Positions 2,680-18,842 of a DNA stretch of 30,130 bases are shown piece by piece (positions within the stretch are counted from its first letter, which is position 1; each line of letters opens with the position of its first letter). The notes below the pieces were generated by a model. The model had not been told where the DNA came from. It did not search any database and worked only from the letters and a program-made list of their open reading frames with translations. The stretch covers positions 1-30,130 of IMG/VR virus record IMGVR_UViG_3300031951_000855. One strand, written 5' to 3'. The stretch is from a virus. The position numbers and the translations under genes were made by a program.

Positions 2680-2796
2680 TGTCTAAAAATAATACAAAAA
2701 AGTGATGGTGTGTCTTTTGAGATGTGTTTGATTTTATTAGGTTTTGACTTTGGCATGGTCTCTGCATTATATCCTTATGAAAGCGAGGACTACAGA

Positions 2797-3084
2797 ATGA
2801 AAGTAATAACTACAGTTAGAACAAACGAGTATCAGTTAGTCGGCAAGCGTGTCGAGTTAGCATGCTCAAGCATTGAAAATGCTTCAAAGGTTTTCAGAGA
2901 CTTCATTGAGTCGAACGATTTCGGGGCATCTCTATGCGCTGAGGCATTTATCAAGGAAGGACGCAAAATCATTGCAAGGATTAGCTATAACGGCAAGGTT
3001 TGGGAATTTGACGGAACAATCCACAACTATGATTCTGCTAAACTATTGTTCAACCCATTCAAAACAAAAGGAGAAAAACTGTGA
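2797..3084 (+). CDS. Hypothetical early protein, 95 aa
   Basis: First gene of the rightward operon, function not recognised. The frame is open further upstream (GTG at 2710, ATG at 2722). ATG 2797 is chosen because it follows GAGGACTA (2785-2792), the ribosome-binding cassette that recurs in front of many genes here, and because the residues upstream look unlike a gene start. The protein is mixed alpha/beta in character, with no signal peptide, membrane segment or catalytic motif. Its stop overlaps the next gene's GTG start by 4 nt, with AAGGAG just upstream, indicating translational coupling. Confidence 0.7.
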   Translation: MKVITTVRTNEYQLVGKRVELACSSIENASKVFRDFIESNDFGASLCAEAFIKEGRKIIARISYNGKVWEFDGTIHNYDSAKLLFNPFKTKGEKL

Positions 3085-3412: not shown

Positions 3413-3529
3413 ATGAAAACATTGGGGGGTTTTGATTTCGGGGGTGTTTTGATTTTTGGATTAGGAATTGCGTCGATCATTTGCACGGTGCAAGTGTTCG
3501 GGAACGCAATTCAATTTTTGAACAAATGA
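3413..3529 (+). CDS. Small single-pass membrane protein, 38 aa
   Basis: ATG 3413 follows AAGGA (3402-3406) at a good distance; a longer in-frame version from 3344 would sit inside the previous gene. The product has one hydrophobic segment, about residues 10-30 (GVLIFGLGIASIICTVQVFG), flanked by few charges, so it is probably a membrane peptide. The function is unknown. It ends 7 nt before the next start codon, and the GAGGACTA cassette of that gene overlaps its stop. Confidence 0.6.
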   Translation: MKTLGGFDFGGVLIFGLGIASIICTVQVFGNAIQFLNK

Positions 3530-3536
3530 GGACTAT

Positions 3537-3830
3537 ATGACACAAGCACAGATTGAAAGAATCGAAGAGAGACTGAACAAAATCGACACCGAGCAAGCGT
3601 ATTTGGAAATGCTGAATGAGTGTTACGAAACTGTAGAAATTTGCGGGCACACTTATGATGCCGGATACGCTTTGAAGGAAATTGATCCCGTGGCTTTCCG
3701 TTGTGGCCACGCTGATTACATTTCCTCGATGCTTGACGACGAATGGATTGAGGTTTCCGGAGAGTTCTATCTCCAAACCGAAGTCCAAGAGCTCTTGGAA
3801 GAGTTCGAAATGAACCTAGAAAACAACTAA
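3537..3830 (+). CDS. Hypothetical early protein, 97 aa
   Basis: Preceded by GAGGACTA (3528-3535) directly before ATG. The N-terminus is a predicted helix (IERIEERLNKIDTEQAYLEML). The centre, AGYALKEIDPVAFRCGHADY, is a pattern I associate with uncharacterised phage proteins, and the C-terminus is an acidic helix. No catalytic motif is seen. It is part of the same closely spaced small-gene run. Confidence 0.75.
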   Translation: MTQAQIERIEERLNKIDTEQAYLEMLNECYETVEICGHTYDAGYALKEIDPVAFRCGHADYISSMLDDEWIEVSGEFYLQTEVQELLEEFEMNLENN

Positions 3831-3850
3831 CTAAAAAGAAAGAGGACTAT

Positions 3851-4099
3851 ATGAACAAGAACGAGCTGGAGAAATTTTTAAAAGGCAAATGGTGTGACTT
3901 ACAACTCCTGGTCTTGGATTACAAAACCGAGAAAGAGCGAACAGAAAGACTCGATGAGTTGGATTCGGTAAACTATCGGGGTGCAACCCTTGGCAGAGAA
4001 GTCCGATACTTCGACTTGAAAACCAAATCACTGAACGATTCAAGAAAAGGAATTCCCGTAGTTCTTTCATCTTGGGAAATGAAAAAGGAGGTTGTATGA
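3851..4099 (+). CDS. Hypothetical early protein, 82 aa
   Basis: ATG 3851 follows GAGGACTA (3842-3849). The protein is charged and mixed alpha/beta, with no recognised domain, signal or membrane segment. The stop TGA overlaps the ATG of the next gene (ATGA at 4096-4099), and the next gene's Shine-Dalgarno AAAGGAGG lies inside this gene's last codons, so the two are coupled. Confidence 0.7.
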   Translation: MNKNELEKFLKGKWCDLQLLVLDYKTEKERTERLDELDSVNYRGATLGREVRYFDLKTKSLNDSRKGIPVVLSSWEMKKEVV

Positions 4100-4778: not shown

Positions 4779-4793
4779 AAGAGAGGACTAACT

Positions 4794-4979
4794 ATGAAAA
4801 CCAAACCATTTAAATATCTAAAGCATAAGGGACTAACCATTTACATTGATTGGAGCATACCCGGTGAGCTCACTGTAGACACTTGGGGCAAGGACTCCGA
4901 GGGCAAGACCTGGACTCTGAAAACTCCAGTCAAGAAAACCCCTCCCAAGAAGACTACCCGTGCGCAAAGGATGCGCTGA
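4794..4979 (+). CDS. Small basic protein, 61 aa
   Basis: ATG follows GAGGACTAAC (4783-4792). Residues 1-40 look beta-stranded (YLKHKGLTIYIDWSIPGELTVDTW). The last 20 are Lys/Pro/Arg-rich (VKKTPPKKTTRAQRMR), suggesting nucleic-acid contact. The final codons are formed by the first copy of a hairpin repeat (4962-4976), so the C-terminus may be shaped by that DNA element. The function is unknown. It is the last gene of the rightward cluster and faces the leftward tRNA-like gene. Confidence 0.6.
   Translation: MKTKPFKYLKHKGLTIYIDWSIPGELTVDTWGKDSEGKTWTLKTPVKKTPPKKTTRAQRMR
4962..4976. repeat. GCGCA-AAGGA-TGCGC hairpin repeat, copy 1
   Basis: Perfect 5-bp arms GCGCA/TGCGC around the loop AAGGA, at the 3' end of the 4794-4979 gene. 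The same unit recurs at 5092-5105 and 5627-5641. Confidence 0.75.
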
Positions 4980-4983
4980 AGAA

Positions 4984-5062
4984 TGGCAAGGGGAGAGGGA
5001 CTCGAACCCTCCACTGACCAACCCGTTTCGGTGGCTGCTCTCGACCCCTGAGCTATCCCCCT
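4984..5062 (-). tRNA. tRNA-like gene with encoded CCA and an atypical anticodon arm
   Basis: Read on the minus strand from 5062: a 7-bp acceptor stem (AGGGGGA with TCCCCTT, one G.U), TA at 8-9, a D-arm stem GCTC/GAGC, a perfect T-arm GAGGG-TTCGAGT-CCCTC, discriminator G and an encoded CCA. These fit a tRNA well. The anticodon region does not. No standard 5-bp stem with a 7-nt loop carrying U33 can be drawn; the nearest reading is CCGAAAC, which would give GAA (Phe) with C in place of U33. The arm instead folds as an extended hairpin. It is either a decayed or unusual tRNA, or a tRNA mimic. Its 5' end overlaps the stop of the 5053-5304 gene. Confidence 0.6.
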
Positions 5063-5626: not shown

Positions 5627-5641
5627 ACGCAAAGGATGCGC
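5627..5641. repeat. ACGCA-AAGGA-TGCGC hairpin repeat, copy 3
   Basis: Third copy of the unit, immediately after the stop codon of the primase-helicase and before its terminator. The arms are 4 bp (CGCA/TGCG). Confidence 0.7.
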
Positions 5642-7938
5642 TACATATCTTGAGTTATTCTTTGGTCGGTATCTGAGATGTCTTTAGCGAACACCAAGTA
5701 CCCTCGAACTCCTCTCTCTTTGGTCCTATCGACTTTGAGATGGGCTAGTGTAGCTCGTAGGCGTGTGAAGTCGCCTCTGGTTGGGTTCTTGATCTGGAAG
5801 GATTCGAGGATATTTAGGGAAGATCTAAAGGAGGGCAGCATTTTTTGTTTCTCGCCTTCCTCTTTAGAATAGTAGCGTTCCAGGAACATTTCCTCGAATG
5901 GATCGGTGGCTTGGAATTCCATGTTATGGGTATTGAGCTGTTTCATTTCCTCAGTTGTGAGGAAGTGGCTCTCGCCTTTTTTCCATAGGAGGTAGAACTC
6001 AGCCCAAACTTGTTGCATGGGCAGGCCGTGGGTATGGTTGATGGAGGTACACTCAATCGTCCAAAACCTCCGGTTCCCCGTAGGGTCGCTTAGGTAGTCC
6101 ATTTGGTTGACGGATGCGAAGAAGACGGTGCGACGGGCGAACTCGGAGGTTTTACGGCCATAGGCTAGGCGTAGGATGTCGGTGTCTTTGGTCAGGAAGG
6201 CTTTGAGCTGGGCGATGTCGGCCTTTCTGAAGGTGGCATCGACTTCTCCGAGTTCGACGAGCCAGTTGGTCACGCATTGGTATACGCTGTCTTTGTCTTT
6301 AGGGTCGAGCATCATACCGTCTTTGGTGACTTCGAGTTCTGCTGGGACGAGTTCTTTGAACCATTTGGTTTTGCCGAGGTATTGCTCGCCCTGGAGGACG
6401 AGGATGCCGGAGCCGGCCGAGCCGTTAGGGGAGAACGCTGCTGCGATAGCGGAGAGCATCCACTTCTTCATGAGAGTCCGCTTTAGGGCTTCGTCGCCTG
6501 GTTTGGTTCGGATGGTTTCGTAGAACTGTTCAAAGCGGCTAACACCGTCCCATTCGGTTCCGGTAATCCACCGAGCCACGGGGTTGACGGGGTTTTGTCC
6601 GGCGAGGTAGCTGACAAATTCTTCGATGTCGCCACGGGGGATGCGGTGTTGCTTGGCGAGGGAGACGATGTGGGTGAGTCGGCCTTCTTTGGCGGTGTCC
6701 TTTAGGAAGCTAGTGGAGGGGATGCTTATTTGAACGTCCTTTTTGATGACATCGTAGGCGATGGTAATTCCATAAGCTTCGGTGAGGGCTTTGATGTTTG
6801 CGACGGTGGACAGGGGGCCTGACTTGGCCATGTCTGGGAAGTTGGGGGTACTTAAATCCCCCGAGCCATTGGTAGAGACCGGGTTAGGTGACTCGGGGGA
6901 CGCTACGGGCTGTGAGGCTCGCTTGCTTGGGTCTAGTTTAGCGTAGAGTTTGCAGGAGTTGGAGCAGAACTTTTGCTTGATTTTCGAGTAGCATCCATAG
7001 GAGTAGGCTGCTTTTCCGGAATACGCATCCGAGATAGCTCGGAGGTAGTCTCGCTCGTAGCGGTCAGAAATGCCTTGGGTTTCGCAGAAGGTGCGGAGCT
7101 TCTCTTCGGTAAAGGAGCGTGGTTCGCCTCGGTGGAAGTACTCGGAGATGAGAGCTAGAGCGGTCTCGTGGCGAGCGCCTTCCTTGTGTTTGGTGGTTTC
7201 GAGAGCCGAGATGCAGGGCTTTTCCTTAAAGGAGGCGAAGACGTTCGACTCGGGGGTTGAGGTCAGGCCGTAGTCGGAGGGTTTCAAAGCCACCGAGCCG
7301 CTCGGTCTAACGGAACCTTTGGCGTACTTGGTGGTAGGGGTGACGTAGGATGCGAGGCTCGTAGGGTGTGGCTGCTTTGCCAGGGTGCGGATGTCGTCGA
7401 GAGGTAGGGCTTCCAACTGATCGAGCGTCAGCTCTACTTTGTAGAGTCCTGTTTTGGGGTGGCGGGAGTTGGGGATGCGCATTTTGCGGTTGGCTTGGTA
7501 GATCGAGTCGTCGAGCGTCGGGAGGTCGTGGGCTTTGGCGATTTCAAGGGCGATGCGTTCGAAGTCTTTAGCGACGGTTTGGCTCGGGGTGAGTGGGAAG
7601 AACTCTTGCCTGACGTAGAGGTGGAAGCCTTTTGAGCCGCTAAAAAAGATTTTATATGTGCCAGATTCAAGCCCGAGCTTTTGAATAGTGGTGAGGCAGT
7701 CAAGTCGAGCAAGCTCCACGTCTTCGGAAGAGTCGAAATCAAAGACATAATAGCCGAGTGCGGGTTGGAGGCATCCTTGGTACTGCTTGAAGGTGTCTCT
7801 TGGTTCGAGGTCGAAGAGGCAGTAGTAACCCTCCGAGCCGCTGAAGTTTTGGATCTTGTCTTGTAGCTCTTCGGCATTGACGTGTCCTTTGGTGAGTGGC
7901 GTGTTTAATGTCGGTACAATGTAGTTGATGAGTTTCAT
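5641..7938 (-). CDS. AEP primase fused to VapE/VirE-type superfamily 3-like helicase, 765 aa
   Basis: Bifunctional replication protein. Residues ~30-190 are an archaeo-eukaryotic primase domain with metal-binding YVFDFDSS (D67, D69) and SGSKGFH (100-106). Cys 242, 316, 325 and 329 (PCI, YGC, FCSNSC) form a probable metal or Fe-S site, as in related primases. A low-complexity linker (about 340-375) leads to a VapE-family ATPase: Walker A GEQYLGKTKW (517-526), Walker B NWLVELGEVD (558-567), and ASVNQ...SDPTGNRRFW (608-626) with the polar sensor and arginine finger. ATG 7938 follows GGGGACTAAT, a variant of the phage ribosome-binding cassette. A promoter-like site lies upstream (7971-7998) and a terminator downstream. 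It probably initiates replication near the iterons at 5305-5586. Confidence 0.9.
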   Translation of the reverse strand: MKLINYIVPTLNTPLTKGHVNAEELQDKIQNFSGSEGYYCLFDLEPRDTFKQYQGCLQPALGYYVFDFDSSEDVELARLDCLTTIQKLGLESGTYKIFFSGSKGFHLYVRQEFFPLTPSQTVAKDFERIALEIAKAHDLPTLDDSIYQANRKMRIPNSRHPKTGLYKVELTLDQLEALPLDDIRTLAKQPHPTSLASYVTPTTKYAKGSVRPSGSVALKPSDYGLTSTPESNVFASFKEKPCISALETTKHKEGARHETALALISEYFHRGEPRSFTEEKLRTFCETQGISDRYERDYLRAISDAYSGKAAYSYGCYSKIKQKFCSNSCKLYAKLDPSKRASQPVASPESPNPVSTNGSGDLSTPNFPDMAKSGPLSTVANIKALTEAYGITIAYDVIKKDVQISIPSTSFLKDTAKEGRLTHIVSLAKQHRIPRGDIEEFVSYLAGQNPVNPVARWITGTEWDGVSRFEQFYETIRTKPGDEALKRTLMKKWMLSAIAAAFSPNGSAGSGILVLQGEQYLGKTKWFKELVPAELEVTKDGMMLDPKDKDSVYQCVTNWLVELGEVDATFRKADIAQLKAFLTKDTDILRLAYGRKTSEFARRTVFFASVNQMDYLSDPTGNRRFWTIECTSINHTHGLPMQQVWAEFYLLWKKGESHFLTTEEMKQLNTHNMEFQATDPFEEMFLERYYSKEEGEKQKMLPSFRSSLNILESFQIKNPTRGDFTRLRATLAHLKVDRTKERGVRGYLVFAKDISDTDQRITQDM

Positions 7939-7939
7939 G

Positions 7940-7949
7940 ATTAGTCCCC
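7940..7949 (-). promoter_or_regulatory. Ribosome-binding cassette of the primase-helicase (GGGGACTAAT)
   Basis: Minus-strand GGGGACTAAT then CATG. It differs from the common GAGGACTAAT by A to G, which would still pair by G.U with the ATTAGTCCTC loop of the adjacent small RNA. Confidence 0.6.
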
Positions 7950-7978: not shown

Positions 7979-7998
7979 AAACAGTTGTGCAAAGGCAA
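7971..7998 (-). promoter_or_regulatory. Candidate promoter for the primase-helicase
   Basis: On the minus strand: TTGCCT (7998-7993), a 16-bp spacer, TATAAG (7976-7971). The predicted start, near 7964, leaves a ~26-nt leader before the ATG at 7938. Confidence 0.45.
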
Positions 7999-8097
7999 AT
8001 AAAATCTTACTTTGACTTTGCGGCGTTCGCCGCTTCTGAATTAGTCCTCAGAATTTCGGGAGTAGAGAGGGATCTCTGCTCCCGTTTTTATTTTTTG
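7985..8097 (+). ncRNA. Probable structured small RNA with anti-ribosome-binding-site loop
   Basis: No gene fits this stretch. The plus strand can fold into three consecutive hairpins. Hairpin 1 (8020-8033) is GCGGC/GCCGC with a 4-nt loop. Hairpin 2 (8034-8053) is TTCTGA/TCAGAA with loop ATTAGTCC. Hairpin 3 (8057-8084) is a 12-bp terminator stem followed by T5-A-T6. The segment ATTAGTCCTC (8040-8049) is perfectly complementary to GAGGACTAAT, found before the starts at 9982, 12464, 12820 and 14834. The next plus-strand gene to the left ends 3 kb away, so a dedicated terminator here implies a local transcript. The alternative is an attenuator leader for the operon starting at 8131. The 5' end is uncertain; the structured part is 8020-8097. 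Confidence 0.6.
8057..8097 (+). terminator. Strong intrinsic terminator
   Basis: 12-bp stem (CGGGAG, one T.G pair, AGAGA matched on the other side) with loop GGGA, followed by TTTTTATTTTTT. It is upstream of the 8131 gene rather than after a gene, which points to a small RNA or an attenuator. Confidence 0.85.
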
Positions 8098-8130: not shown

Positions 8131-8334
8131 ATGGTTACTTTTAAAGAGGTTACGGTTGGTGGGAAGGTCGGGGCTTACTTCAAGGGTAGTAGCAAATCGG
8201 AAGTGGAGCAAGCGGCCATGGACTACATGGCGGAGTATCCGTTCGCTGGATACTTGACCGAAGTGGAGAAGAAGGGGGAGAACATGGACGGTGGATACTA
8301 TATCCACATCTGGAGGAGGGCGAGCTGTGACTGA
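8131..8334 (+). CDS. Hypothetical early protein, 67 aa
   Basis: First gene of the long rightward operon. ATG 8131 is preferred; GTG 8113 in frame has GAGGG better spaced, so the start is uncertain. A beta-like N-terminus (FKEVTVGGKVGAYFKG) is followed by a helix (EVEQAAMDYMAEY) and a C-terminal strand (GGYYIHIWRR). No recognised family or catalytic site. The last codons contain GGAGGAGGG serving the next gene, which overlaps by 8 nt. Confidence 0.65.
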   Translation: MVTFKEVTVGGKVGAYFKGSSKSEVEQAAMDYMAEYPFAGYLTEVEKKGENMDGGYYIHIWRRASCD

Positions 8335-9973: not shown

Positions 9974-9983
9974 GAGGACTAAT
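9974..9983 (+). promoter_or_regulatory. Perfect ribosome-binding cassette GAGGACTAAT
   Basis: GGAGGACTAATG directly at the start of the 9982 gene. Ten nucleotides are complementary to the small-RNA loop at 8040-8049. Confidence 0.8.
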
Positions 9984-10131
9984 GAAAACTTGTGAATGTA
10001 TCTGGGAAGAAGAAGAGTGTTGTGGTGAGTGTGAAGATGCACTCACGGATCGGTTGTTCTTTGGTAGTGAAGCTGCCAAGCATGACCACAGTTGTCTGAT
10101 TTATTTGTGTACTTGTGGAGGTGGCAAATGA
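9982..10131 (+). CDS. Cys-rich mini-protein, 49 aa
   Basis: Preceded by the perfect GGAGGACTAATG cassette. Eight Cys: CEC near the start, CCGEC at about 14-18, and a late C with CTC (CLIYLCTC). This arrangement suggests binding of one or two zinc ions, but no named finger fits. An acidic WEEEE patch lies between. The stop overlaps the next ATG by 4 nt. Confidence 0.6.
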   Translation: MKTCECIWEEEECCGECEDALTDRLFFGSEAAKHDHSCLIYLCTCGGGK

Positions 10132-10527: not shown

Positions 10528-10613
10528 AATATTTACAGATAGGGCTTTTGACTTACGCAGTAGTTAGTTTGATCCTAATTGCAGTGTGGTTTGTGGATGA
10601 GTTCATACTATGA
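10524..10613 (+). CDS. Single-pass membrane micro-protein, 29 aa
   Basis: ATG overlaps the previous stop and its stop overlaps the ATG of the PAPS-reductase-like gene. It is nearly all hydrophobic (IGLLTYAVVSLILIAVWFV) with acidic residues after the segment. It resembles the 27-aa protein at 12728-12811 (GFLTFAVVLVVYYL), suggesting a duplicated micro-gene. The function is unknown. Confidence 0.5.
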   Translation: MKYLQIGLLTYAVVSLILIAVWFVDEFIL

Positions 10614-11344
10614 GAAACGTATCTTGGTTTAGCTGTGGAGCAGCTTCTGCTGTAGCCACTAAAAAAGCCCTTGAAAAGTACGGCGCTGAGAACTTTATCA
10701 TCGCCTCCTGCGTTGTCGAGAACGAACACCCCGACAATGAACGCTTCTTGCAGGATTGTGAGAAGTGGTATGGGATGCCCATTCTTAGACTGCGGTCGGA
10801 GAAGTACAAAGACTGCTGGGAAGTATGGGAAAAGACCAAGTATCTAGTCGGCCCTATGGGTGCGCGTTGTACTACCGAGATGAAGAAGCTTGTCAGGCAG
10901 CGGTTCCAAAAGGTTAGTGATAAACAGATCTTTGGATTTACAGCAGAGGAAAACCACCGGGCCGACCGCTTCAGAGAACAGAACCCAGAGGTAGATTTGT
11001 CCACTCCTCTTATTGATCTTGGGTTGACCAAGAAGGATTGCTTCATTGAACTTCAGAAGGCAGGGATTGAACTTCCTGCTATGTATAAACTCGGATACAA
11101 GAACAACAACTGTGTCGGCTGCGTCAAAGGTGGTGCAAAGTATTGGTCGTCGATTCGGAGGGATTTCCCAGATGTATTTAAAAAGATGGGAGAGCTTGAA
11201 CGAAAGCTTGATGTGAAGATTTTAAAGGTTAAGGGTAAGCGTATATTTTTAGACGAGCTGCCACTTAATTATCGCAGCAACCAGGTAGAGCCTGACATGG
11301 AGTGTGGCCTTTGGTGTAAAGGAGATGACAATGGAGCAGAGTGA
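10610..11344 (+). CDS. PAPS reductase-like / PP-loop enzyme, 244 aa
   Basis: Adenine nucleotide alpha-hydrolase fold: the N-terminal SWFSCGAASAVATKKAL is a PP-loop (S-G-x-x-S type), CVVENEHPDNERFL is the usual second strand, and GARCTTEMKK is the PAPS-reductase-type region. C-terminal NNCVGCVKGG provides a Cys pair that with other Cys may hold an Fe-S cluster. Phages often carry such genes; proposed roles include sulfur transfer or DNA modification (DndC is a relative), but the substrate cannot be read. It continues the ATGA-coupled chain, and its last codons hold the AAGGAG of the next gene. Confidence 0.85.
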   Translation: MRNVSWFSCGAASAVATKKALEKYGAENFIIASCVVENEHPDNERFLQDCEKWYGMPILRLRSEKYKDCWEVWEKTKYLVGPMGARCTTEMKKLVRQRFQKVSDKQIFGFTAEENHRADRFREQNPEVDLSTPLIDLGLTKKDCFIELQKAGIELPAMYKLGYKNNNCVGCVKGGAKYWSSIRRDFPDVFKKMGELERKLDVKILKVKGKRIFLDELPLNYRSNQVEPDMECGLWCKGDDNGAE

Positions 11345-12370: not shown

Positions 12371-12445
12371 TGCGCCTTAGCTCAGCGGTAGAGCAGAGAG
12401 CTGTTAACTCTAAGGTCCGTGGTTCGATCCCACGAGGCGCAGCCA
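12371..12445 (+). tRNA. tRNA-Asn (GTT)
   Basis: A full cloverleaf: a 7-bp acceptor stem TGCGCCT/AGGCGCA, D-arm GCTC/GAGC, anticodon loop CTGTTAA with anticodon GTT, T-arm CGTGG-TTCGATC-CCACG, discriminator G and an encoded CCA. It starts 6 nt after the stop of a small gene and would be cut from the early polycistronic transcript. Confidence 0.95.
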
Positions 12446-12455
12446 TTAGATAAGG

Positions 12456-12465
12456 GAGGACTAAT
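12456..12465 (+). promoter_or_regulatory. Perfect ribosome-binding cassette GAGGACTAAT
   Basis: GGGAGGACTAATG at the start of the 12464 gene, complementary to the small-RNA loop. Confidence 0.8.
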
Positions 12466-12589
12466 GCAATTTGAGGAATTTCTGTTTTTGTGTGGGTTAT
12501 GTATTTGTTACGGGCTGTGCATCACCTTCGGGGGACTGCTCGGCATTGGGATTTTTGCAGTGATAAGAGAGGCATTTAAACGTAGTTAA
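12464..12589 (+). CDS. Small membrane protein, 41 aa
   Basis: Follows the GGGAGGACTAATG cassette. It has a short acidic start (MQFEEF), then a long hydrophobic stretch with four Cys (FLFLCGLCICYGLCITFGG) running to IGIFAVI, and a basic tail (KRS), consistent with one long or two short membrane segments. The function is unknown. Confidence 0.6.
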   Translation: MQFEEFLFLCGLCICYGLCITFGGLLGIGIFAVIREAFKRS

Positions 12590-12811: not shown

Positions 12812-12821
12812 GAGGACTAAT
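12812..12821 (+). promoter_or_regulatory. Perfect ribosome-binding cassette GAGGACTAAT
   Basis: GGAGGACTAATG at the start of the methyltransferase-like gene, complementary to the small-RNA loop. Confidence 0.8.
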
Positions 12822-13389
12822 GAAAGTTTTAATCGCTTGCGAATATTCTGGAAGGGTTAGAGACGCTTTTATTAAATTAGGTCACGAAGCCATGTCTTGT
12901 GATTTATTGCCCACTGATTCTCCTGGTCCACATTATCAAGGGGATGTTTTTGACATCATTGATGGGAATTGGGATTTAATGGTTGCTCATCCTCCCTGCA
13001 CATATCTTTGTAATTCTGGCGTTTGTTGGCTTTATAAAGATGAATCTCGCTGGGATAAAATGAGAGAAGGGGCGTTGTTTTTTAAAAAATTACTAGAGGC
13101 AAATATCCCTAAAATAGCCATTGAGAACCCGATTATGCACAAATATGCCAAAGAGATTATTGGCATGGACAATACCCAAGTAGTGCAGCCTTGGATGTTC
13201 GGACATGGGGAAACAAAGGCGACTTGTTTTTGGCTTAAAAATTTATCCCCATTAAAACCTACTAACATTGTTAGTGGTAGAGAACAGCGTCTTCATAGAC
13301 TTCCTCCCAGCAAAGACAGGTGGAAACTTAGAAGCACAACATACCAAGGGATTGCCGACGCTATAGCAGCTCAGTGGGGAGTTCAGTAA
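12820..13389 (+). CDS. DNA cytosine methyltransferase-like protein, 189 aa
   Basis: A short Rossmann-type enzyme. VLIACEYSGRVRDAF resembles C5-methyltransferase motif I, HPPCTYL with C60 resembles catalytic motif IV, and IENP (101-104) resembles motif VI (ENV). It lacks the target-recognition domain and is roughly half the usual length, as seen in a phage group commonly annotated as DNA cytosine methyltransferase; activity is unproven. The gene is visibly richer in A/T-ending codons than its neighbours (many TTT, TTA, AAA), suggesting separate acquisition. ATG 12820 follows the cassette GGAGGACTAATG. Its stop overlaps the helicase ATG (TAATG). Confidence 0.75.
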   Translation: MKVLIACEYSGRVRDAFIKLGHEAMSCDLLPTDSPGPHYQGDVFDIIDGNWDLMVAHPPCTYLCNSGVCWLYKDESRWDKMREGALFFKKLLEANIPKIAIENPIMHKYAKEIIGMDNTQVVQPWMFGHGETKATCFWLKNLSPLKPTNIVSGREQRLHRLPPSKDRWKLRSTTYQGIADAIAAQWGVQ

Positions 13390-14825: not shown

Positions 14826-14835
14826 GAGGACTAAT
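14826..14835 (+). promoter_or_regulatory. Perfect ribosome-binding cassette GAGGACTAAT
   Basis: GGAGGACTAATG at the start of the 14834 gene, complementary to the small-RNA loop. Confidence 0.8.
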
Positions 14836-15301
14836 GGAAGACATGGATTTTGGCTTTTCTGAAAAGCCGCTCGATCAAACAACAATTCAAGAACTAGATG
14901 CAATGGTGAAGAAGTGCTTTGAGCTTCGTGCAGAGTACGAAGAATTAAAGGACAAGGCATCTGAAAAGCATGGTGAGTATGAAACCATGCAAGCAAAGGT
15001 ACAGAGTATTCTCGAAGCCACCGGGCGCTTGAATCACAGCACTCCCGGTGCTGGGACAATCAGCATGAAGACGCAGTACACTGTGGCGTTCCCAAAAGAT
15101 TCGGAAAGAGCCGCAGAGTTTCGTCAGTATCTTGTGGACAACGGACTCGATTCAATGCTTACAATGAACCATCAAAGTTTGAACGCATTTTTTAAATCAA
15201 AGCTTGAGGAGGCTGGAGAGGGAGCCGATCCGAGTCAGGTGCTACCAGGCATCGGAGCACCTGAACAACGCATTACCCTCTCAATGAGAAAAGGAAAATA
15301 A
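14834..15301 (+). CDS. Coiled-coil DNA-metabolism-associated protein, 155 aa
   Basis: The N-terminal half is a long charged helix (MVKKCFELRAEYEELKDKAS) continuing to ILEATG. The C-terminal half has a beta segment (GTISMKTQYTVAFPKD) followed by helices ending in AFFKSKLEEA. No enzymatic motif. It is placed between an SNF2 helicase and the SSB-like gene, so a replication or recombination accessory role is likely, but the family is not recognised. Confidence 0.75.
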   Translation: MEDMDFGFSEKPLDQTTIQELDAMVKKCFELRAEYEELKDKASEKHGEYETMQAKVQSILEATGRLNHSTPGAGTISMKTQYTVAFPKDSERAAEFRQYLVDNGLDSMLTMNHQSLNAFFKSKLEEAGEGADPSQVLPGIGAPEQRITLSMRKGK

Positions 15302-16119: not shown

Positions 16120-16836
16120 ATGCACGGGTTATTCTTAGATTTTGAAGCAACAGACAAAGACGTAAAGACAGCACGGATTACTCAGATTGCGTTCAGTGTT
16201 TGGGACACTGAAGATAAAAAAGAGCTTTTTCACTACAGTTCGTTGATACTTCCAGAGGGGGAGTATGAGATAGATCCGGTTGCGGCTAGAATCACGGGCA
16301 TCTCAAAAGAACAACTTGAACGATTCGGAATTGCGCTTTCTAAAGCTCTTGATGTTTTGGGGCGGCATCTTAGTGGGGTGGATTTTCTTGCAGCTCATAA
16401 CCTGCATAATTATGATTATCCCCTATTAACCAATGAGATGTTGCGGATCGGCAGGGATGCGTTTCAGCTTCCGCAGTTAGTAGATACCAGGTTCGATATA
16501 CCGTGGCCTGAGCATATCGAAACTCGGAAGCTGACGTATCTAGCCGCAGAGTTCGGCATCGTGAACCCTTCGGCCCACAGTGCTAGGCATGACGTGGATC
16601 TAATGGCGAAGCTATTCTTCATGTTCCCCATCGAGGTGACTATGGAGCGAGCCAAAAGCCCACAGATCTGGGTGCGGGCCAATGTAAGCTACGACCACCG
16701 GGAGAAGGCGAAGGCTCGCAAGTTCCTCTGGGACGGAGGCAACAAGTGGTGGGTCAAGTTATTCAAGCAGTGCGACTTTGAAAAAGAGACGTTTGAATTT
16801 CCAACCATAATTCTAAAGGACTATAAGGGGCCATGA
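16120..16836 (+). CDS. DnaQ-like DEDDh 3'-5' exonuclease, 238 aa
   Basis: Exo I LDFEAT near the N-terminus, Exo II in AAHNLHNYDYPLL and Exo III HSARHDVDLMAKLF (H-x4-D) are the complete DEDDh set. The C-terminal ~60 residues (KARKFLWDGGNKWWVKLF) are an extra Trp/Lys-rich module seen in some ExoX-like proteins. It may trim 3' ends in recombination or proofread. This is notable because the polymerase right after it has its own exonuclease domain. The stop overlaps the polymerase ATG. GGGGGA precedes its start. Confidence 0.88.
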   Translation: MHGLFLDFEATDKDVKTARITQIAFSVWDTEDKKELFHYSSLILPEGEYEIDPVAARITGISKEQLERFGIALSKALDVLGRHLSGVDFLAAHNLHNYDYPLLTNEMLRIGRDAFQLPQLVDTRFDIPWPEHIETRKLTYLAAEFGIVNPSAHSARHDVDLMAKLFFMFPIEVTMERAKSPQIWVRANVSYDHREKAKARKFLWDGGNKWWVKLFKQCDFEKETFEFPTIILKDYKGP

Positions 16837-18842
16837 TTGTTACTACTGAGGACTTTGAAAGCAGCGTTGAAACTATCCGTAATTGTACTTCTCTCAGCCT
16901 TGACACAGAGACAAGCGGCCTCCGACCTTATCATGGTGATAGGCTTTTCGCTATTACGGCTGCTGGAGCTTTCGGTGAGCTTTATTTTGGGTTTGGTGCT
17001 TCAGGCTTAGACCATGCACTAATCCCCCGAATCTACGATGCAGTGAAGGGTAAGACAGTTGCATTTGCGAACGCCAAGTTCGATATGCACTTTCTATGTA
17101 ATGAAGGTTGGGGGACCGATTATGAACCGTGGGATATTCTGGTTGTCGATAAGTGTATTTACAATAGGCATCTATCATACAGCCTCAATGCCGTGGCTGA
17201 ACGGATGGGCTTTGGGTCTAAAGATGGAGGAGTTATGGCCTACATCAGCGAACACGGTCTATACGACAAAGAGGAAATACCGGGGAAAAAGACGGTCAAG
17301 AAGAACCCCCGATTCGACCGAGTCCCCTTGGAGATTATCTCAAAGTACGCCCTGCAAGATGCACGGCTTACCTATCAGATTTACGAAGCACAGCTTGTAA
17401 AAGTGCAGGAGTTGACGGAGAAGTATTCCAAGATTAAAGGCTACCCGGTGCGGTTTTCAGATCTCGTAGCAGATGAGAGAAAGCTCACTAAGGTGTTGTT
17501 TGACATTGAACGCAGAGGAATGGGGTTAGATCGTGGCTACATCGAAAAAGCAAAGAAGAGGGAAGAGTACAGGATCAACAAAGCGAAAGCGAAGTTCACC
17601 GAACTTACTGGCGCAGAGCTTGTTGACAGCAATAAACAGTTATCCCAGATCTTCGGAGCAAATGGGATTGTGGGAGGTACTACCGCTAAGGGCAATGCAA
17701 GCTATACAGACGCAGTTCTCGAAACCATCGAACACCCCATCGCAGGAGTAATCCGTGAGTACCGAGATGCCACCAAACGACTCAACACCTATTACAATAA
17801 TTTTACCTATTGCGGAGATAAAGAAGGAGTTGTGCGCCCTTCTATCAGACAAACTGCCGCAGACACCTTTAGATTCTCTATCACCGACCCTGCACTTCAA
17901 ACTCTTAACAGTGAGGACGATGGAGACTGGAGGGTTCGGGATTCATTTAGGGCTCGACAAGGTTTCGTTTACATTTCCATCGACTACCAAGCCCAAGAGT
18001 ACCGCCTTACGGCTGATTACGCCGGAGAACGAGGGCTCATCCAACAAATTAACGAAGGAGTAGATGTCCACTCCGCAACGGCTAAGATGATGGGGGTAGA
18101 TCGCTATTCAGCCAAGGTGCTGAACTTTGCGCTATTGTATGGTGCAGCAGCGCCGAAAATTGCCACAATGCTGAAGGTATCGGTTGATAAAGCCACCGAG
18201 CTTAAGAATCTATACTTCTCAAAGCTTGGTAGAGTGAGTAGTTTAATTAATAATATCAAATCAACTATTGATAGCCGTGGGTACATCTTCAACTTCGCAG
18301 GGCGGATCTTGCACTTTCCAGTGATCGAGTTCGACCAGGACGGGGTGAAGAAGCGGGGGAACTTTGCGTATAAGGGACCAAACTACATCATCCAATCCTC
18401 CGGTTCGGAGATTATGCGGAGAGCATTGATCGCTGTGGATGGGTTTCTTAAGCCCTATCAGTCTAAGATCGTGCTGTCGATTCACGACGAGTTACTGCTC
18501 GAAATGACAGAGGATGAGCTGTATCTAATCCCCCGAATCAGAGAGCTTATGGTTGGCGTGTATACCCCTAAAAATGGACTACCGATGAGTACATCAGTTG
18601 CCATTGGCGAAAGTTGGGGTAGACTAAACGACATCAATGAAGACGAACTTGCCAAAAGAATCGACGTTCAAAAAGCGTGTGCTGTCGAGACTGCGAAAGC
18701 TGCCACGTACAGTGACGTTCACGATTCAGCAAACGTCGATCAGGGGAACCCCAGACTTGTTGCTTTGTGTGAACGGGAGGTTCGTGGGACTGGAGCTGAA
18801 GCGGAGTCGGACTGCCCCAGCAACCGAGCTACAGCTATATAA
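16833..18842 (+). CDS. Family A DNA polymerase with 3'-5' exonuclease domain, 669 aa
   Basis: The replicative polymerase. The exonuclease domain has LDTETSGL (D24, E26), NAKFDMHFL (D84) and YALQDARLTYQIY (D176). Polymerase motif A is SIDYQAQEYRL (D384), motif B is RYSAKVLNFALLYG (K428, Y436) and motif C is SIHDELLLE (H551, D552, E553). The phenylalanine/tyrosine switch position carries Tyr (LLYG). Family members usually end soon after the S-x-x-W-G segment (here ~residue 596). This frame runs ~70 more residues, and from codon ~602 overprints the N-terminal half of the VRR-NUC gene in another frame. ATG overlaps the exonuclease stop. Confidence 0.95.
   Translation: MIVTTEDFESSVETIRNCTSLSLDTETSGLRPYHGDRLFAITAAGAFGELYFGFGASGLDHALIPRIYDAVKGKTVAFANAKFDMHFLCNEGWGTDYEPWDILVVDKCIYNRHLSYSLNAVAERMGFGSKDGGVMAYISEHGLYDKEEIPGKKTVKKNPRFDRVPLEIISKYALQDARLTYQIYEAQLVKVQELTEKYSKIKGYPVRFSDLVADERKLTKVLFDIERRGMGLDRGYIEKAKKREEYRINKAKAKFTELTGAELVDSNKQLSQIFGANGIVGGTTAKGNASYTDAVLETIEHPIAGVIREYRDATKRLNTYYNNFTYCGDKEGVVRPSIRQTAADTFRFSITDPALQTLNSEDDGDWRVRDSFRARQGFVYISIDYQAQEYRLTADYAGERGLIQQINEGVDVHSATAKMMGVDRYSAKVLNFALLYGAAAPKIATMLKVSVDKATELKNLYFSKLGRVSSLINNIKSTIDSRGYIFNFAGRILHFPVIEFDQDGVKKRGNFAYKGPNYIIQSSGSEIMRRALIAVDGFLKPYQSKIVLSIHDELLLEMTEDELYLIPRIRELMVGVYTPKNGLPMSTSVAIGESWGRLNDINEDELAKRIDVQKACAVETAKAATYSDVHDSANVDQGNPRLVALCEREVRGTGAEAESDCPSNRATAI

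Follow-up and report, generated by a model that had tools for sequence, protein, structure and literature searches.

The window analysed here, a virus record of 30,130 bases taken as a whole, belongs to a phage that encodes an A-family DNA polymerase and a primase-helicase and has its structural genes on the minus strand. Between the primase-helicase gene (5641-7938, minus strand) and a divergently oriented 67-aa ORF (8131-8334, plus strand) lies a gap that holds three adjacent plus-strand hairpins (8020-8084), the last of which, with its 12-bp stem and T-run, is an intrinsic terminator (Table 1); both the positions and this assignment agree with the original prediction. The predicted minimum free energy (MFE) was -37.1 kcal/mol, compared with -21.9 +/- 3.0 kcal/mol for shuffled sequences (z = -5.07; 0/200 shuffles as good), and the centroid fold of the three-hairpin RNA was identical to the MFE fold. 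The middle hairpin had been thought to expose positions 8040-8049 in full. We found that this holds for 8040-8047 only; the last two bases (TC) are paired in the stem, and a 10-bp duplex must therefore open the stem top. The computed opening cost of hairpin 2 is ~4.5 kcal/mol. No Rfam family was found for the RNA: a scan of the window returned only a tRNA, and the best weak match at the RNA locus reached 15.1 bits against a gathering threshold of 60. Among the traits of Hfq-dependent sRNAs, only the terminator U-run is visible.

No promoter for the RNA was detected by a sigma-70 scan, the upstream motif being conserved but a weak match to the consensus. We infer a transcription start near hairpin 1 from TTGTGCAA, which stands at a -35-like distance, and from the TA-rich hexamer that follows it. 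Every relative carries TTGTGCAA itself (7985-7992, plus strand; reverse complement TTGCACAA) unchanged in its divergent region, where it might act as an operator in addition to a -35 element. On the other side of the terminator, the conserved 67-aa ORF lacks a Shine-Dalgarno (SD) sequence in 6/6 phage sequences; a possible -10 element just upstream of it in some phages may indicate leaderless translation.

The 10-nt core of hairpin 2 is complementary to GAGGACTAAT, which was predicted to recur at the translation starts at 9982, 12464, 12820 and 14834. Exact copies were indeed found on the plus strand at 9974, 12456, 12812 and 14826, each leading into the ATG at these starts, and a minus-strand exact copy lies at 8049-8040, within hairpin 2. 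The near-matches claimed before the starts at 2797, 3537, 3851, 4794 and 7938 also proved real. With up to one mismatch allowed, GAGGACTAAT gave 10 matches versus 2.2 expected, a number reached in 0/100 shuffles. Predicted duplex energies were -13.9 kcal/mol for the four exact copies and -12.0 to -12.9 kcal/mol for the near-matches, compared with -4.2 to -7.2 kcal/mol at four late-gene SD sites, and the 8-mer GAGGACTA occurred at 0/18 late-gene starts in the window. The short target windows are barely structured (self-fold 0 to -2.5 kcal/mol). Cassettes were counted by an ATG-linked motif search, because short genes escaped a simple gene caller. Of the cassette-bearing ORFs, those scanned encode the primase, a methyltransferase-like protein or proteins without known function, and no match to an antirepressor was found among the scanned ORFs, which did not include all ORFs. 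The window also carries predicted genes for tRNA-Phe(gaa) (4984-5062, minus strand) and tRNA-Asn(gtt) (12371-12445, plus strand), the latter directly 5' of the cassette-bearing 41-aa ORF, and a phosphoadenosine phosphosulfate reductase-like ORF (10610-11344, plus strand; phrog_424, E 8e-50) that is kept in two relatives.

Table 1. Predicted elements of the RNA locus and cassettes at translation starts (window coordinates unless a relative is named)
Feature	Position	Strand	Basis or remark
Putative promoter: invariant TTGTGCAA, then ~17 nt later a TA-rich hexamer, ending just 5' of hairpin 1	7985..8018	+	alignment of 5 phages
Predicted small RNA, ~70-75 nt (5' hairpin, target-binding hairpin, intrinsic terminator)	8020..8090	+	fold z, covariation in 6 phage sequences, covariance-model score
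Hairpin 1, GCGGC-GTTC-GCCGC	8020..8033	+	covariation in outer stem pairs; no change in closing CG or loop GTTC
Hairpin 2 (predicted target-binding), TTCTGA-ATTAGTCC-TCAGAA	8034..8053	+	stem covaries
Antisense core ATTAGTCCTC, complement of GAGGACTAAT	8040..8049	+	8040-8047 loop, 8048-8049 stem top
Hairpin 3 (8057-8084, 12-bp stem, GGGA loop) and T-run TTTTTATTTTTT, intrinsic terminator	8057..8096	+	
Cassette GAGGACTACAGAATG, internal ATG start (95 aa)	2785..2799	+	near copy before 2797
Cassette GAGGACTATATG, 97-aa ORF start	3528..3539	+	near copy before 3537
Cassette GAGGACTATATG, 82-aa ORF start	3842..3853	+	near copy before 3851
Cassette GAGGACTAACTATG, 61-aa ORF start	4783..4796	+	near copy before 4794
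Cassette GGGGACTAATCATG, 765-aa primase-helicase start	7936..7949	-	GRGGACTA kept at gene in every relative
Cassette GAGGACTAATG, 49-aa ORF start	9974..9984	+	
Cassette GAGGACTAATG, 41-aa ORF start	12456..12466	+	
Cassette GAGGACTAATG, 189-aa DNA methyltransferase-like ORF start	12812..12822	+	
Cassette GAGGACTAATG, 155-aa ORF start	14826..14836	+	also at the orthologue in each RNA-bearing phage with a contig that covers it
CGCGCAAAGGATRCG element, relative L089	~16150-17700	-	
CGCGCAAAGGATRCG element, relative L095	17542, 18848		

Five further phage records were found to carry a homologue of the RNA 5' of a primase that shares 57-96% identity with that of the window: 3300044678_001503 (96%), 3300045999_007197 (72%), 3300016665_000375 (69%), 3300008267_000387 (57%, measured over the first half of the protein) and a contig binned into a Bdellovibrionales MAG (67%). 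The last of these, a 6.2-kb contig, came from an alignment-based search for the primase in viral and genome contigs, which otherwise added only 3300008448_002001, a near-identical contig (99.96% over the shared part). An alignment-based polymerase search added no closer relative, and when viral contigs were scanned with looser patterns of the RNA, nothing but coding-sequence noise emerged beyond the known members. The label of the MAG (Bdellovibrionales, REEB505; relative L114) may be a host hint or a binning error. Weak covariance-model matches in G002 (17.6 bits) and G004 (18.9 bits) were rejected as hairpins without the conserved loop, and a suspected hammerhead motif in the G004 leaders was unsupported by Rfam.

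The RNA is present in all relatives whose contigs reach the primase-adjoining site, and in all homologues it lies divergent to the primase and 5' of the 67-aa ORF. In the six-sequence alignment, 99.3% of the cells of its 23 pairs were paired and 14/23 pairs had changed on both sides, with compensatory changes in all three stems. The covariation score was 0.586, compared with 0.257 for shuffled alignments (0/500 reached the observed value) and 0.08-0.19, at most 0.186, with slid partners; the window RNA scored 90.6 bits against the covariance model, whose own sequences include it. The loop of hairpin 2 is nearly fixed while the stems covary, and the tetraloop of hairpin 3 is GNRA-type in every homologue (GGGA, GCAA or GAAA). 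We assign the RNA to the plus strand because nine G.U cells of the alignment would not pair on the minus strand and because a T-run follows hairpin 3 in every homologue. These observations bear on an alternative raised with the original prediction, in which the minus-strand copy GAGGACTAATTC is a degraded, leftover ribosome-binding site; the hairpins would then be a mere terminator region. In favour of that account, this copy is an exact cassette core, but in no phage is it followed after 4-20 nt by an ORF of at least 25 aa, and stems that covary round a nearly fixed loop, together with the G.U pairs and T-runs, mark the conserved structure as one of the plus strand. We regard a leftover site as very improbable.

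The cassette is shared by the phages that carry the RNA. GAGGACTA was the top start-proximal 8-mer in all four RNA-bearing phages tested (the window, G001, G004 and G005; tied-top in G001), which had 8, 8, 7 and 7 sites, and was found at 0 starts in nine unrelated contigs. At the orthologues of the primase and the 155-aa ORF, GRGGACTA is kept in every RNA-bearing phage where these starts are readable. In the relative G002, where cassettes are few, the start of the 155-aa orthologue is without it; loss of the RNA in G002 is unproven, as its contig does not contain the primase region. Early genes of G001 and G004 without a detectable homologue in the window also bear the cassette, which argues for repeated recruitment and not inheritance alone. 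In two relatives, a repeated intergenic element (CGCGCAAAGGATRCG), a potential small hairpin with an AAAGGAT-like loop, lies a few nt 5' of several GAGGACTA cassettes.

A comparison of the loop with the ribosome-binding consensus of each related phage had been set in advance as a test that could refute the antisense reading, should the two be found to change independently. The loop is ATTAGTCC in all homologues except 3300008267_000387, where it is AATAGTCC, and the cassettes of this phage have moved from GAGGACTAA towards GAGGACTAT, matching the loop. The base after GAGGACTA is T at six sites and A at one in 3300008267_000387, whereas the other three phages together have T at three sites and A at 18 (Fisher p = 0.0014; p = 0.0048 with the looser motif RRGGACTA). 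The antisense reading withstands this test, the only loop change being accompanied by a matching cassette shift. These p-values overstate independence, because a single event is involved and several of the 3300008267_000387 cassettes lie in similar repeated leaders; the apparent coevolution, resting on one event, is supportive and not conclusive.

We further ran a blind screen for any terminator-linked hairpin loop that is the complement of an 8-mer present at at least four starts. Across 66 contigs of at least 9 kb, including 46 outside the RNA family (668 kb), the only matches were the phage-family RNA described here in both of its loop variants, and the words recovered in the variant phage include AGGACTAT, its own form. 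A second test, in which only the 5' part of the loop was shuffled and strong duplexes at SD-preceded starts were counted, was weaker and separated the real loop less sharply than the screen: in three of four phages the observed count of strong sites was attained by 8-10% of shuffles, although only 1-4/150 matched the energy of the best eight sites. Some of the complementarity is to the SD itself, a sequence that may occur at any gene start. One alternative is that the complementarity is coincidental, with loop and cassette conserved for unrelated reasons, since SD-like words are common and CCTC would be expected to pair with many SDs. However, the match runs through ACTA(A), beyond GAGG, the screen found no other case in the 46 unrelated contigs, and loop and cassette changed together once. 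We find coincidence scarcely credible.

The original proposal of a trans-acting antisense RNA is supported by an RNA that is kept across relatives, by stems that covary and by a loop complementary to the dominant cassette of each phage. The fold and its covariation, the strand, the complementarity and the enrichment at starts are computed, as are the confinement of the cassette to non-late genes and the single matched change of loop and cassette; that the RNA is transcribed, that it pairs directly in vivo, that it represses rather than activates, and its timing are inferred. Judged from sequence alone, the RNA of this family of uncultivated phages probably turns early and replication genes down together by base pairing. 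We give a probability of roughly 0.78 to the reading that an independently transcribed ~70-nt RNA represses the translation of an early/replication regulon in trans. The RNA would be transcribed rightward from the divergent intergenic region adjoining the primase-helicase gene and would be independently terminated. Flanked by the 5' hairpin and the terminator, hairpin 2 would present its 8-nt loop AUUAGUCC, which, with the UC that follows, could pair over 8-10 bp with GAGGACUAAU, the segment from SD to start codon before a set of early and replication genes. With the SD and the start codon hidden by such pairing, 30S subunits would be kept from binding and translation of the whole cassette-bearing set would fall, while the late genes, which lack the cassette, would be spared. 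The RNA could serve to end early expression, to cap the amount of early proteins or to block an incoming related phage. A role in lysogeny is so far without support, because none of the larger proteins scanned from the most complete relative was recognisable as an integrase.

The main rival is that the hairpins form the leader of the 8131 operon, with a transcript from the same promoter that is mostly terminated and let through by antitermination or attenuation, the short RNA being a by-product. The lambda 6S RNA at the late promoter and the HK022 put leaders are comparisons for a terminated leader with antitermination. Consistent with a leader, the terminator lies ~20-80 nt 5' of the 67-aa ORF, which is conserved without an SD in any phage, and 3300008267_000387 leaves little space for a second promoter. 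Nevertheless, no fold competes with the terminator (the centroid fold being the MFE fold), so that the originally suggested attenuation, for which mutually exclusive folds are the criterion, is weakened; it is not excluded, given a terminator 5' of a small operon, and neither is protein-driven antitermination. A leader also leaves unexplained why an unpaired loop is kept as the exact complement of the start cassette. We consider the leader account unlikely, and a leader role and a trans-acting role are mutually compatible.

The sign of the effect is a separate matter, since it is not fixed by sequence and the pairing evidence would be identical if the RNA protected or activated the messages, or if the cassettes mainly soaked it up. 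The predicted duplex covers the SD and, at the exact sites, reaches the start codon, and known SD-binding sRNAs so placed repress (PMC3861533). The weak self-folding of the target windows noted above also leaves no obvious inhibitory structure to relieve. Activation or sponging thus appears improbable, and we retain repression. Under repression, ~7-10 genes per phage would apparently be controlled through a repeated ribosome-binding cassette on unrelated early genes of different phages. If confirmed, this would amount to an RNA switch acting on the translation of an entire class of phage genes, and the blind comparison of loops with start words can be applied to any phage genome for further cases.

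Several known systems resemble the predicted one in part. The c4 RNA of P1/P7 is phage-encoded and prevents translation by pairing of its loops with the ribosome-binding region of phage mRNA (PMC12197685). The RNA described here likewise has the defining trait of this type, a loop complementary to the ribosome-binding site of a phage message, and the predicted action on phage messages is alike; unlike c4, which controls the ant locus, it would reach about nine separate genes in trans via one repeated cassette, from its own promoter and with its own terminator. In Gram-positive bacteria, RNAIII, the Rsa family and LhrC use an exposed UCCC or C-rich hairpin loop to pair with the SD regions of many mRNAs (PMC3861533). 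As expected of such SD-binding sRNAs, the RNA has an unpaired site that is complementary to several start regions and conserved while its stem changes; its own terminator is present and conserved, although a transcript itself is not observable from sequence. Unlike these bacterial regulators, the phage RNA has a specific loop (AUUAGUCC), and its genome carries a matching dedicated cassette that reaches the start codon. Phage sRNAs acting on phage messages have mostly been described with one or few targets (review). P22 sar is a small phage antisense RNA that blocks translation initiation of ant (PMC12197685), and sar and lambda OOP are each described as antisense to a single phage message, whereas the RNA of this phage family matches many unlinked genes through a short loop. 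An earlier description elsewhere is not excluded, because only an open-access subset of the literature was covered. In logic, the RNA resembles T4 RegA/RegB, which shut off the translation of many early genes at a common start-site feature (PMC3014915); those agents are proteins, a repressor and an endoribonuclease, whereas here the agent would be an RNA. We lean, with less assurance than for repression in trans itself, towards the view that the early/replication gene set is in large part under one RNA address, in which a cassette shared by unrelated genes and a single reader RNA form a coevolving pair, an RNA counterpart of the T4 RegA/RegB shut-off.
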